Origin: an uncultured bacterium
GTDB lineage: Bacteria; Desulfobacterota; Binatia; HRBIN30; CADEER01
Assembly: GCA_902826395.1 (NCBI GenBank)
Contig: CADEER010000018.1
Coordinates: 28,466 to 60,725 of the forward strand
Reading direction: 5' to 3'
Length of the DNA stretch: 32,260 nucleotides
Shown: in pieces, positions 10,665 through 31,353 of the stretch
Layout: every line of letters starts with the position of its first letter
Position numbering within the stretch: position 1 is the first letter of the stretch
Program-made: the position numbers and the translations under genes
Notes under the pieces: generated by a model
Databases searched by the model: none
Told to the model about the DNA's origin: nothing
What the model saw: the letters and a program-made list of their open reading frames with translations, nothing else

Positions 10665-12218
10665 CTAATACCGGATCTCGAATACCTCGATGACCTCACC
10701 CTCGCCCGCCGCATACTCGAGGCCCTGGATCCGGTATCGCGAGCGAACCATCGCGAGGAGTTCCAGAAACGTTTCGCTGTTCAGCAATCGCCGGTACAGC
10801 GTATCGGGCGGCGGAATGCGCTGGAGCAGCACCAGCCCGGGCTGAAGTGCCAGCCATTTGCGCACGGCGGGACTGCCCGCGATGACGTACGTTCCCGGCT
10901 GCGACAGCGCGCGGTGGTCGCTGCCGGCTTCCGCGTAACCCAAAACCCCGACGGTGCGGTAGCTCGTGCCGTCCGGGCGCAGCACCGCTACCGGCATGCG
11001 CGGGCGATAGCCGCTGAAGAACAGGAAAGGAGCGCTCGCCTCTGGGTCGACGACTACTCTGGCGGGATTGGCCTCGGCGATCACCGCATGGGCGTGCCGA
11101 TACCCATCTGCGCGCGCGCGGCTGCCGTCGAGGACGACGCAGGCGAGCGACGAAACGAGTATCGCCACGCCGACGGCGATCGACGTGGTCGGTGCGAGCC
11201 GGCGCAGCCAGAGAGCGAGAAGCAGGACGAGGGGAAGCTGGAAGAGCGAGAGGTAGCGCGGCAGGCGATCGAGCGGCGCATAGGTGAAAGGTGAGATGGT
11301 GCCGTACGAGATCCAGACAAAGAGCACGGCCACGAACAGAGCGAGGGTGCGCTCCGTGCGATCGCGCGATTTGATCAGGCACCAAACCGCCAGCGGCAAG
11401 CCCAGCAGCAAGTAGAGACCGAGCTCCTGCTCGCTGGCGATCCGCAACAGCGGGTGCGAAAGCCAGTCTATGGTCCAACCGGCTTCGGCCACGTCGACGT
11501 TCACGCCGCGCACCGTCGCCTGGCGGGACAGAGCCGCGAAGCGGACAAGCGGGTCGCCGTAGATCGCGGCGGAGACCGTCGCATCGATTACCAGGGTCGC
11601 GACGAGCGCGGCGAGTGCCGCGAGGTGAGCGCGCGACGGCCGCCCTAACGTGACCGCGTAGACGGCGTATGCGATCAGCACCAGGAGCGGCGTTTCGGAG
11701 AAGGATGCAGCGATTCCGAGAGAAGCTCCCGCGACGGCGAACGTCCGCGTGTCACGTGTGCGCTCGCCGAGCGCGAAGAGCAGGATCGCCGCCCCCGCGA
11801 ACAATCCGATCGGCGTGGTCGGCGAGGTTGTCGTCGCGAAGATGACGTCGAGCGGGAACACCGCGAGGAGTGCGGCCGCCACCAAGGCCGTCGTCTCGTC
11901 GAACAGATCCCGGCCGAGAAGGAACAGCGCCAAGAAGCCGAGCGCCGAACATGCCAATGGGATCGCTACAGCGGTTGCCGCGTTGACGCCAAAAGCGGCG
12001 AACAGTGCGGCGGTAGAGCCGACCATGCCGTTACGCGTCTCGAAGTGCTGTGGGGTGCCGGATTGCTGGCCGACCGACAGCAGGTACGCTCCCTCGATGT
12101 AATGCCGATCGTCGAAGCCGACGTACACGCTCGCGAAGGCGAAGCGGATCGCCAGCCCGATGATGACGATCGAGACTAGCAGCAGTTGCGTCGACCGTGG
12201 CGATCGCGGTTGGCCCAC
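10665..12218 (-). CDS. GT39/ArnT-like polytopic membrane glycosyltransferase
   Basis: The 517-residue integral membrane protein resembles the dolichyl-phosphate-mannose / ArnT-type transferases, which move a sugar from a polyprenyl-phosphate donor at the outer face of the membrane. After the first helix (about LLLVSIVIIGLAIRFAF) comes the acidic loop VGFDDRHYIEGAYLLS, where an Asp pair normally lies in the active site. There are then about ten more hydrophobic stretches and a soluble C-terminal domain from about residue 370. The start is assigned to GTG 12218, because GAGGGG (12230-12225) sits 6 nt upstream. The frame is also open to ATG 12311, but the extra 31 residues are hydrophilic and lack support. 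Acceptor and sugar are unknown. Confidence 0.8.
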   Translation of the reverse strand: MGQPRSPRSTQLLLVSIVIIGLAIRFAFASVYVGFDDRHYIEGAYLLSVGQQSGTPQHFETRNGMVGSTAALFAAFGVNAATAVAIPLACSALGFLALFLLGRDLFDETTALVAAALLAVFPLDVIFATTTSPTTPIGLFAGAAILLFALGERTRDTRTFAVAGASLGIAASFSETPLLVLIAYAVYAVTLGRPSRAHLAALAALVATLVIDATVSAAIYGDPLVRFAALSRQATVRGVNVDVAEAGWTIDWLSHPLLRIASEQELGLYLLLGLPLAVWCLIKSRDRTERTLALFVAVLFVWISYGTISPFTYAPLDRLPRYLSLFQLPLVLLLALWLRRLAPTTSIAVGVAILVSSLACVVLDGSRARADGYRHAHAVIAEANPARVVVDPEASAPFLFFSGYRPRMPVAVLRPDGTSYRTVGVLGYAEAGSDHRALSQPGTYVIAGSPAVRKWLALQPGLVLLQRIPPPDTLYRRLLNSETFLELLAMVRSRYRIQGLEYAAGEGEVIEVFEIRY

Positions 12219-12641
12219 GGCTAGCCCCTCAAAAGGTTGCGACCCGGCGCTCGCGTTTCTCGGCCGACGGCCGTTTCTGGTGTGGCGTCGGGATGCCTCC
12301 GCCGAAGGCATCCACCCGCGGTGACCGTGCGCGCAAGGGCGAGCAAGTTGAATCGACCGCGTTTCGGAGAGTTGGATACGAATGGGGCGGATGCGGCTCG
12401 ACGTGGACAGGGGAGGTCAGTGTTAAGAGATCGAGAAACCTGGCATATGCCGGGCCAAGCGCCTGATAGTGGGTTGGCATTGTTGGTGATTCTGGTAGGG
12501 TGAACCAACTTCGTGGGGTTGCGATCTCGCATCGGCGACTTAAGCTGCGCGGCAAGCCGATAGACGAAACCCCGGTTGACCGGCCGGATCCGAACGACGA
12601 CTCGGAGTTTGATGACAGGCGCGTGGATGTCAGGCCTCTTA
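12219..12641. other. 423-bp divergent intergenic region between the GT39-like gene and mlaA
   Basis: No convincing gene is present; the open frames here are short and Arg-rich. It should carry both promoters. A perfect 8-bp hairpin, GGATGCCT/AGGCATCC, lies at 12291-12313. A self-complementary GGCATATGCC is at 12442-12451. A weak rightward promoter candidate is TTGGCA (12474-12479), a 16-bp spacer, then TAGGGT (12496-12501). Several in-frame ATGs (12576, 12612, 12627) precede the mlaA start chosen here. Confidence 0.4.
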
Positions 12642-28688: not shown

Positions 28689-30386
28689 TCAATCGCGACG
28701 CATCTCCGGCACGAGGCTGAGCACGCCTTCGGCCACGTTTGCTGCGAGGAGGCGATTGCCCTCGACCGTCAAATGACCGAAGTCGCCGGCGAAGAGATCG
28801 GTGAAGATCTCCGTGTAGGGGCGGCCGAGCAGCGTGTCCTTGAAGGCGCGCTCGTTATCGACAAAGACGACACCGTACGGTGATGCCTCGATCAGTCTCT
28901 GCAGAGTTTCCAGTGGTCGCATCGGATACTGAACGGCCACCAGCGGCACGCCGCGCGACGCGAGGAGTCTGTGCAGCTCGAGATAGTTGGTCGCAGTAGT
29001 CGGATTGGTGCCGCTGCGCAGCAACTCCTCTACGGCGCGATGGTGCTTCTCGGCGCGATCCGCGTCGCCGTCCTGCAAGGCGAGAACCGCGAGCTGACCA
29101 TGGGCGCGGATACGCACGCGCGCGCTGACTTCGTCATCGGCCTCGGCGAGACCTTGCAGCCCCTTCGCCGCGTCCTGCGTGGCACCGCGGGCGATCTGTT
29201 CCCAACTCTGTTTCAGATGCAGGCCGCGCAGTCCCTCGTCGAGCTCGCTTCTGGCGCGCCGGAACCATAGCTCTTGCGAAGTCGGCTCAACCGTCGGGTC
29301 GGGGCTTTCGGGTCGAGGCGCCGCGGCTGCGACCGCGGCGAGCTCCGGCGATCCGATGAGCAGGTCGCCGGCCAGCAGGTAGACCAGCCGCGGATTGGCT
29401 GCCACGGCCGCTTCGTAGCTGCGCCGGGCTTCCTCGGGCGATTCCATGATCTCCAGCACGCGGCCGTGGACCACCCAAGCGACCGTGTTGCGCGGATCGA
29501 TCTCGGTCGACCGTCTCGAGTAGTACTCGGCGCCGGCGGTATCGCGACGGCGAAACGCGATCACGGCGCGCGCCGCCAGGGCGTCGGAGCTTTGCGGCAT
29601 TCGCGACGCCACCCAGTCGAGCACGCCGACGAACGGATTCTCGACGCCGAACGCGTACCCAACCACCACCGGCGCGTCGACTTCGAATGCTTTCACGTAG
29701 GCGGCGGCCGCAGCTTCGATCTGGTTCTGCGCGACGCGCGCCTCGGCGAGGGCGATATGACCGCGCGGATCGCGCGGCGCCAACTGTTGCACCTGCGCCG
29801 CGAGCTCGGCCGTCGTATCTGGCCGGTGCTGCAGTGCTGCCTCGGCGCGCACCAACAAGTCCTCGATCTGATCCTCGACGGGTGGCGGGCGATAGGAGTG
29901 GTAGAGCATCTCGAAGAGCTTCCAGACCCGCAGCGAGCTGCCGGTCTGGAACACCGGGTCGATCAGATGGCCGTCGTTGACGCCCATCATCGTGACGACG
30001 ATGTCGGGGTCGTCGCGTTCGAGCATTTCCGGCAGCCTGGCGACGATGACGTCGGTGGTGGTGCCCGGCCGGCCGCCGTTAATCACCTCGAACCGCGCCT
30101 TGCCGCCCGCCTTTTCATTGAGGATCTCCTCGAGCTGCTGAGGATAGGACTTTTCGCCGGCATCGATACCGGCGGTTGTCGACTCGCCGAGGCAGAGTAT
30201 GCGGTAGACGCCGTCAGCGCTCACCGTTCCGCCGCCCTCGATGCTGCGTTCCGGCTCATAGAGCAGACCGCCGAGGCGCAGCAGCAACTCGATCAACGCC
30301 AGGGCGACGATGATCCCGGCGGCGGCGAGCAGAATGCGGCCGCCCCAGCGTCGCACCAATCCGATCAACGGCGTCGCTTCCGCCAC
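28689..30386 (-). CDS. Membrane-anchored SGNH/GDSL hydrolase with large TPR-like insert
   Basis: The 565-residue protein has an N-terminal membrane anchor (IIVALALIELLLRLGGLL, about 25-42). The SGNH blocks follow: CLGESTTAG with nucleophile Ser69, GGRPGTT with its oxyanion Gly (104-110), MGVNDG with Asn137, and the late DFGHLTVEGN with Asp535 and His538. Between block III and block V lie about 390 residues. Much of it reads as TPR-like helical repeats (HIALAEARVAQNQIEAAAAA; ALAARAVIAFRRRDTAGAEY; SPEEARRSYEAAVAANPRLV). The active site is therefore split by a protein-interaction region. Such enzymes de-acylate polysaccharide or cell-wall polymers; the substrate here is unknown. The start is GTG 30386 with GGGGA upstream. 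Confidence 0.88.
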   Translation of the reverse strand: MAEATPLIGLVRRWGGRILLAAAGIIVALALIELLLRLGGLLYEPERSIEGGGTVSADGVYRILCLGESTTAGIDAGEKSYPQQLEEILNEKAGGKARFEVINGGRPGTTTDVIVARLPEMLERDDPDIVVTMMGVNDGHLIDPVFQTGSSLRVWKLFEMLYHSYRPPPVEDQIEDLLVRAEAALQHRPDTTAELAAQVQQLAPRDPRGHIALAEARVAQNQIEAAAAAYVKAFEVDAPVVVGYAFGVENPFVGVLDWVASRMPQSSDALAARAVIAFRRRDTAGAEYYSRRSTEIDPRNTVAWVVHGRVLEIMESPEEARRSYEAAVAANPRLVYLLAGDLLIGSPELAAVAAAAPRPESPDPTVEPTSQELWFRRARSELDEGLRGLHLKQSWEQIARGATQDAAKGLQGLAEADDEVSARVRIRAHGQLAVLALQDGDADRAEKHHRAVEELLRSGTNPTTATNYLELHRLLASRGVPLVAVQYPMRPLETLQRLIEASPYGVVFVDNERAFKDTLLGRPYTEIFTDLFAGDFGHLTVEGNRLLAANVAEGVLSLVPEMRRD

Positions 30387-30510
30387 CGCTCTTCCCCAAC
30401 CGTCGTCAAATGCGGCGACGCTCCCATCGGGTCAGCAACCTGTCAAGGCGAATGACCCGTATCGATGCGGCACGCTCGACGCAGCGGCGGCTTTGTGCGA
30501 AGGGGCTGGC

Positions 30511-31353
30511 ATGAGCGACTCTTCCACGTATACGCCGCCGAAGGTCTGGCAGTGGGACGCCAACATGGGCGGCCGATTTGCCGGCATCAATCGTCCCGTC
30601 GCGGGACCTACGCACGAGAAGGAGCTGCCGGTCGGCAAACACCCGCTGCAGCTCTACTCACTGGCCACGCCGAATGGGATCAAAGTCACCATCATGCTCG
30701 AGGAGCTGTTGGCGATCGGCCGGCAGGAAGCCGAGTACGACGCCTATTTCATCAACATCCTCGAAGGCGAGCAGTTCGGCAGCGGCTTCGTCGCGGTGAA
30801 TCCGAACTCGAAGATCCCCGCTCTCCTGGACCGCAGCACTTCGCCGCCGACGCGCGTATTCGAGTCGGGCGCGATCCTGTTGTACCTGGCGGAGAAGTTC
30901 GACGCCTTCCTGCCGCGCGATCCAGCAGCGCGCGCCGAGTGCTACTCGTGGCTGTTCTGGCAGATGGGCGCCACTCCCTTTCTCGGTGGTGGCTTTGGAC
31001 ACTTCTACGCCTACGCGCCCGAGAAGCTCGAATACCCGATCAACCGCTACGCCATGGAAGTGAAGCGCCAACTCGATCTACTCGATCGCAACCTCGCCGA
31101 GCGCGAGTATCTCGGCGGCGACGAGTACACCATCGCCGACATGTCTACCTACCCATGGTACGGCGGTCTCGTGCGGGAGAACCTCTACCAGGCGGCGGAG
31201 TTCCTCGATGTGAAGTCGTACGGGAACGTCGCCCGTTGGGCGGACGCAATCGCGGCACGCCCCGCCGTGCAGCGCGGCCAGCGGGTCAACAAGGCCTGGG
31301 GCCCGGAAGAGCTGCGCGTCCCGGAGCGCCACAGCGCCAGCGATCTGGATTGA
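30511..31353 (+). CDS. yghU: Glutathione transferase family protein YghU
   Basis: The 280-residue product is a close match to YghU-type glutathione transferases (disulfide-bond reductases that bind two glutathiones). The diagnostic opening is TYTPPKVWQWDANMGGRFAG, then INRPVAGPTHEKELPVGKHP, and LQLYSLATPNGIKVTIMLEE, the thioredoxin-like domain with its Thr-Pro-Asn in place of an active-site Cys. NPNSKIPAL, FESGAILLYLAEKF and the helical domain PFLGGGFGHFYAYAPEKLEY and DEYTIADMSTYPWYGG follow. It acts in the cytoplasm and probably handles organic peroxide or disulfide stress. ATG 30511 follows AAGGGG; the frame is open to 30310 but that overlaps the divergent SGNH promoter. It is followed 27 bp later by the HIT-like gene. 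Confidence 0.96.
   Translation: MSDSSTYTPPKVWQWDANMGGRFAGINRPVAGPTHEKELPVGKHPLQLYSLATPNGIKVTIMLEELLAIGRQEAEYDAYFINILEGEQFGSGFVAVNPNSKIPALLDRSTSPPTRVFESGAILLYLAEKFDAFLPRDPAARAECYSWLFWQMGATPFLGGGFGHFYAYAPEKLEYPINRYAMEVKRQLDLLDRNLAEREYLGGDEYTIADMSTYPWYGGLVRENLYQAAEFLDVKSYGNVARWADAIAARPAVQRGQRVNKAWGPEELRVPERHSASDLD

Follow-up and report, generated by a model that had tools for sequence, protein, structure and literature searches.

A membrane-anchored SGNH protein with a helical, TPR-like insert between its catalytic blocks in an uncultured Binatia bacterium, and its relatives in Omnitrophota

The locus in this study raises the question of how a protein with the catalytic blocks of an SGNH hydrolase at its two ends, and a long helical region between them, may fold, and what such a protein might do. 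The window (the whole stretch of 32,260 nucleotides that was analysed) contains the gene as an open reading frame on the minus strand at positions 28689–30386, stop included, with a GTG start and a product of 565 amino acids; the plus-strand reading of the same positions is broken by stops. A first-pass annotation of this DNA placed blocks I–III within residues 66–139 and the Asp-His block at residues 535–538, and both the positions and the residues named are right.

The protein carries the block I serine and the block V Asp-x-x-His that are features of the SGNH/GDSL superfamily, and Pfam matched Lipase_GDSL_2 at residues 65–191 (E 1.8e-12), while no NCBIfam cut-off was reached by the protein or the four relatives scanned, among the matches listed. 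On motif and alignment, block I is GEST (residues 67–70; 30177–30188, minus strand) with the putative nucleophile Ser69, block II is NGGRPG (residues 103–108, with GGRPG at 104–108; 30063–30080, minus strand) with Gly105, and block III is GVND (residues 135–138, with GVNDG at 135–139; 29973–29984, minus strand) with Asn137 and Asp138; both oxyanion-hole residues, Gly105 and Asn137, are thus present. Further along the protein, the AlphaFold2 (AF2) model and alignment place beta4 with QYPMR at residues 482–490 (28917–28943, minus strand) and beta5, FVDNE, at residues 508–512 (28851–28865, minus strand), and the alignment places block V, DLFAGDFGH, at residues 530–538 (28773–28799, minus strand). 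Across 80 non-identical family sequences, Ser69, Asp138, Tyr487, Pro488, Asn511 and His538 are retained in all 80, Gly105 in 78, Asn137 in 76 and Asp535 in 67. A second aspartate, Asp530, lies eight residues before His538 and is better kept (77/80) than the expected catalytic Asp535, and its conservation is, as judged from the alignment, a feature of this SGNH-TPR family. DFGH at 535–538 is the sole DxxH in the whole protein, and a scan of the whole protein found one G[DE]S motif in all, that of block I, so a pairing of DFGH with a second GDS-type block that had been missed is ruled out.

The membrane anchor that had been proposed is borne out by hydropathy (KD19), which gave a single hydrophobic segment at residues ∼15–40 (30267–30344, minus strand) with a maximum of 2.84 at residue 18 and no value above 1.6 elsewhere, and by a predicted helix at residues 7–42 in the AF2 model. 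Judging by the basic residues that precede this N-terminal helix, the SGNH core would face the periplasm.

The region between the blocks had been described as about 390 residues of helical repeats. The distance from block III to DFGH is indeed 395 residues, but some 75 of these belong to the SGNH core and are common to relatives (beta4 'LVAVQYPMR', beta5 'VVFVDNE' and their helices), and the insert is therefore ∼300 residues long. Its extent, residues ∼165–462 (29001–29894, minus strand), was taken from HMM bounds (299 aa), the all-helical part of the AF2 model and alignments to TPR-protein PDB chains within residues 225–460; in an alignment with nine relatives, the conserved C-terminal part starts near residue 463. 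The insert site follows the helix that comes after beta3 and precedes the one that leads into beta4. The modelled insert is all-helical rather than unstructured, albeit at low confidence, and the TPR-like character claimed for it is matched in part by Pfam, with TPR_2 (PF07719) at residues 208–236 (29679–29765, minus strand; 28.2 bits for the whole protein against a cut-off of 27, with no single stretch passing E 1), TPR_8 (PF13181) at residues 303–332 (29391–29480, minus strand; 24.9 bits, below the cut-off of 25.7) and a third weak match at residues 427–471. One TPR family is thus over its cut-off, by whole-protein score, but a repeat HMM trained on the repeats of relatives finds no TPR in the window insert. 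Against TPR-protein chains the insert gives Z ∼12 with an rmsd of 6–12 Å, or 3–4 Å for a few shorter alignments, a level that is ambiguous for helical repeats. By sequence, then, the insert of the window copy is weakly TPR-like, and its repeats are probably degenerate.

AlphaFold2 models were built from two sequences, with a pLDDT of 51 for the window protein and 62 for the relative L004, which comes from an Omnitrophota assembly. Both models show beta1-beta2-beta3, an all-helical middle and then beta4-beta5. The window model, of low confidence, aligns with SGNH enzymes over residues ∼59–560, spanning the insert, at Z ∼13–15 over ∼150–180 residues overall, including AlAXEase (7ddy_B; Z 14.9, 3.6 Å, 176/200 residues) and E. 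coli TesA (6lfb; Z 14.6, 3.1 Å, 161/179 residues); at Z 14–15 with these esterases, the superposition of both ends agrees with the earlier proposal that pieces far apart complete one compact fold. For the L004 model there is a match to a GDSL esterase (7e16_A; Z 16.6, 3.1 Å, 182/207), and the insert of this model matches MamA, a TPR protein (3as5_B; Z 19.4, 2.2 Å, 158/169). A profile from which the insert had been removed found 33 distinct PDB sequences at E ≤0.01, nearly all named SGNH, GDSL or esterase, and matched solved SGNH chains almost solely via its N-terminal half. The alignment with Axe2 pairs D535 with D191 and H538 with H194, two Axe2 residues whose D191A and H194A variants are called catalytic mutants in the titles of their PDB entries; that C-terminal stretch scores 4.6 bits.

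The architecture is also found in other genomes. Within the window's class, at least 10 of 148 genomes match both ends (G000, the window's own genome, which has three family copies, and G001, G002, G003, G006, G039, G052, G104, G113 and G115), a count read from the matches listed with ten candidates scored per genome. In a thin sample of the window's phylum, the C-terminal signature (D-x-F-x-G-x-F-G-H) was present in one of 395 genomes, the window's own, and in Omnitrophota, which are mostly uncultured, it was present in 59 of 237 genomes, with up to 17 matches in one genome. The 80 sequences used for conservation and for the tree are what remained of 88 with both blocks after removal of repeats, and one earlier conservation alignment comprised the 64 of 75 sequences in which both blocks were well covered. 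Block order and insert site are constant across all 80 sequences, from two groups of genomes, and this constancy makes the architecture more than a chance arrangement. A midpoint-rooted tree of the core of these sequences does not place the class copies in one clade; the smallest clade with all of them has 69 tips and a support of 62, and at that support no transfer history was drawn from the tree. Spread of the family on mobile elements was considered and rejected, as plasmids and phages gave no family match at E 1e-6 and none of 81 pattern matches in viral contigs was confirmed.

The insert is the variable part of the family. Its length ranges from 44 to 723 residues across the 80 sequences, with at least three TPR matches by the repeat HMM in 46 of them, commonly spaced 33–35 residues, and none in 22. 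TPR repeats are clear in L004 and many Omnitrophota relatives. In the class, the repeat HMM finds none in 13 of the 14 sequences, the window copy among them, and one in the remaining sequence, L039. A genome of the same genus as the window's (G001:C77, locus L005) carries two tandem family copies with inserts of ∼113–118 aa, in which block V reads 'GIFGH' or 'GSFGH' where the window has 'GDFGH'. The shortest insert, 44 residues, is that of L135 (322 aa), which has both halves and sits on a long tree branch among insert-bearing members, and may reflect secondary loss. Variation is also found within a single genome, the Omnitrophota genome G593, in which seven SGNH-TPR genes lie in a row (L100, G593:C27:34000-51484; the contig ends within the last of them) and three further ones lie at L101 (G593:C45), all with similar cores and inserts that differ in repeat number. 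Among nine of these ten genes, the tenth being the one cut by the contig end, mean identity is 0.68 in the N-terminal part, 0.76 in the C-terminal part and 0.46 in the insert, with insert identity the lower in 36 of 36 pairs and several length differences near multiples of 34.

Polysaccharide genes beside the window gene had been suggested as a check on its role, and none were found near it. Its near neighbours encode a deazaflavin/F420 reductase, a cNMP-binding protein, a P450, a GST-type protein and a weakly HIT-like protein; the GST-type gene (30310–31353) scores 499.5 bits against an NCBIfam cut-off of 325 as a glutathione-dependent disulfide-bond oxidoreductase. Pfam scans covered 7 plus 20 ORFs of the window, leaving out two short ORFs and a further one of 238 aa, and among the 20 further ORFs there is one glycan-type gene, a PMT_2 gene (GT39-like; 10668–12311) ∼16 kb away. 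With none among the near neighbours, a polysaccharide operon at the window was rejected. PMT_2 genes occur in the window and within one or two genes of both paralogs of the same genome: at L002 one adjoins the paralog and is followed by an SGNH gene with an AlgX match, and at L003 one lies one gene away. No shared partner gene stands out in the class set among the best 25 of 110 families listed. Around the Omnitrophota copies L112–L116, L118, L119, L100 and L101, radical SAM proteins make up 13 of 73 neighbours and SPASM domains 6 of 73, where the radical SAM background is 507 matches in 8 genomes (∼17.3 Mb) and the neighbour enrichment counts clustered, possibly non-independent genes; radical SAM is not among the best 25 families listed for the class set.

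Association with MBOAT proteins is found in relatives. At seven Omnitrophota loci (L115 and L120–L125), the MBOAT and SGNH-TPR frames lie on the same strand with a 3 nt gap or overlapping. Direct neighbours of a family gene thus make up 7 of the 40 MBOAT genes detected across 55 Omnitrophota genomes, where 0.35 would be expected within 3 kb. These counts cover 55 of the 59 positive Omnitrophota genomes (G611, G675, G678 and G725, with partial, broken or weak matches, were excluded), and with L121 and L123 being close relatives, independent pairings number fewer than seven. The inserts at L120–L125 have at most one TPR by the repeat HMM. Among the eight sequences at these seven loci, Asn137 is lost in three and Gly105 in two, and one section of PMC12148441 bears a title that likewise speaks of a noncanonical oxyanion hole. 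One class genome, G115, has a convergent MBOAT neighbour (L109), and all eight adjacent MBOATs end in FXYXXF, as FIYFQF or FIYYIF. This tail is presented as an acyl shuttle for PatA and as common among bacterial MBOATs in the parts of PMC12148441 consulted. It is also carried by unpaired MBOATs (L126 and G000), and being so common it shows the kind of MBOAT and not a partnership.

No MBOAT gene adjoins the window copy, nor does one lie on any of the contigs of the three family copies of its genome (C18, C12 and C37). The three MBOATs of this genome, on C5, C153 and C65, end in FIYFQF, FIYFQF and FVYQGF. A search next to them with the family profile, which could overlook distant SGNH types, gave no SGNH-like ORF, and the seven neighbours scanned included none either. 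Pairing of the window copy in trans with an MBOAT encoded elsewhere in the genome is possible. The earlier proposal of docking on a partner or polymer machinery is supported indirectly, by the MBOATs that adjoin relatives at seven loci, but not by the immediate surroundings of the window gene.

Taken together, the reading we favour, which we regard as evenly poised between right and wrong, is that the window protein is a single-pass, membrane-anchored periplasmic SGNH acyl-transfer enzyme whose solenoid docks on a partner. The N-terminal helix would anchor the protein in the membrane, and the core would be formed by residues ∼55–165 and 463–560, with a TPR-type solenoid of ∼300 residues looped out between. 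Ser69 would attack an acyl donor to give an acyl-serine, with His538 as the base, Asp535 as the usual third residue and an oxyanion hole from Gly105 and Asn137, and the acyl group would be passed to, or taken from, an envelope glycan or a lipid-linked sugar. The solenoid may dock the enzyme on a protein partner or polymer complex and would be the diversifying part between paralogs. In some relatives, the adjacent MBOAT with its FXYXXF tail could supply the acyl donor, most simply as its acyl-Tyr, which would make these relatives O-acyltransferases, and the window copy may likewise transfer acyl groups, perhaps together with an MBOAT whose gene lies elsewhere in its genome.

This reading presupposes that the two ends form one fold and that the fold is still an enzyme. 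That the C-terminal block is instead an unrelated domain, in which DFGH has another role, would fit the low confidence of the model near block V (pLDDT <50 at residues 512–539) and the poor match of the C-terminal half alone to solved SGNH chains, but we consider it highly improbable. Both models, built on one and the same pair of sequences, can be overlaid on SGNH enzymes all the way from beta1 to the final helix; in 70 of 75 sequences a single frame contains both the N- and the C-terminal block (four of the exceptions continue beyond the DNA retrieved, and the fifth, L072, is a complete frame of 205 aa that lacks the N-terminal block); and the window protein has no second block I with which DFGH could pair. 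One SGNH fold built from both ends with a helical solenoid looped out is supported by the structure comparison, which spans the insert albeit with weak models, by the conservation of the blocks in 80 relatives and by L135, in which only 44 residues separate the two halves. It is also improbable, if a little less so, that in many copies the SGNH core survives as a remnant with a structural or binding role and the protein acts through its TPR part, as a scaffold. Asp535 is lost in 13 of the 80 sequences and Asn137 in four, of which three are at MBOAT loci, as such a remnant might show. Against this, Ser69 and His538 are retained in all 80, conservation is concentrated in the core and variation in the TPR part, and other SGNH enzymes are known to do without the block V Asp, with NanS and Streptomyces SsEst as examples in the sections of PMC9487903 consulted.

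A stronger rival is that the protein is a stand-alone periplasmic esterase, such as a glycan de-O-acylase or a TesA-like thioesterase/lysophospholipase, in which the solenoid selects a protein- or polymer-bound substrate and MBOATs are uninvolved in most copies, a reading we rate as plausible though short of even. No MBOAT was detected in 34 of 65 genomes with the family, and neither an MBOAT nor the acyltransferase AT3 in 30 of 55 Omnitrophota genomes; as these genomes show neither, most copies cannot need such donors, unless the assemblies miss them. AT3 was itself considered as an alternative donor and rejected, being present in 12 of 56 genomes and, at its nearest, 17 kb from a listed family copy (contig G593:C12). 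The nearest solved relatives are esterases as well (acetylxylan esterases, TesA and CE3), and Gly105 and Asn137 are retained in 14 of 14 class sequences. Against an esterase stand the seven direct MBOAT adjacencies, far above expectation. For the window copy, transferase and stand-alone esterase are about equally likely. A wider reading, that this is a family of membrane-anchored SGNH acyltransferases whose fold incorporates the TPR scaffold found as a separate protein in other exopolysaccharide systems, and that its multiplication in Omnitrophota gave sets with a constant core and interchangeable docking arms of varying repeat length, each directing acylation to its own envelope partner, is speculative and seems rather unlikely.

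If the single fold holds, one loop of the SGNH fold can accommodate inserts that range from 44 to over 700 residues, and if the docking role does, targeting of envelope acylation would have a one-gene solution. The family may also give a handle on the envelope chemistry of Omnitrophota, and the tandem sets, in which the core is steady and the solenoid changes, mean that swaps of the solenoid between paralogs could test whether the TPR part sets the target.

The family is apparently undescribed: in the titles and abstracts searched (SGNH/GDSL, TPR, MBOAT and Omnitrophota), no description of an SGNH-TPR architecture was met, and by word counts TPR is not mentioned in the main texts of PMC12148441 and the SGNH review PMC9487903. 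Known SGNH/GDSL esterases (TesA, Axe2, AlAXEase and CE3) share with the window protein the block order, the modelled fold and the Ser/Gly/Asn/Asp-His set, but the PDB chains compared are 175–220 residues long, and to our knowledge none of these enzymes has a solenoid insert or an N-terminal membrane anchor like that predicted here. In the MBOAT-SGNH acyltransferase pairs, such as PatA/PatB, DltB/DltD and AlgI/AlgJ, the SGNH partner is membrane-anchored as here, and the seven Omnitrophota loci have their MBOAT adjoining, but the window copy is unpaired and about half of the family's genomes are without a detectable MBOAT. In AlgX and PatB1, the SGNH order is permuted, with Asp-His before Ser, whereas the order of the window protein is canonical (Ser69 before Asp535 and His538). 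The passages of PMC12148441 consulted give PatB beta-hairpin additions. For a binding domain within an SGNH fold, the nearest printed parallel met is that of the viral hemagglutinin-esterases (PMC9487903, section 11), in which the inserted domain is a jelly-roll lectin of a viral glycoprotein. The present protein is bacterial and its insert would be a helical solenoid, and the parallel does not imply that the families are related. The nearest functional parallel, by analogy, is AlgK-AlgX of alginate export, in which a TPR protein and an SGNH acetyltransferase form one periplasmic unit (PMC9734138, as far as consulted), AlgX being of the circularly permuted SGNH type in the pages of PMC9487903 seen. 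AlgK-AlgX consists of two chains, whereas the window protein would hold its helical repeats inside one catalytic fold.
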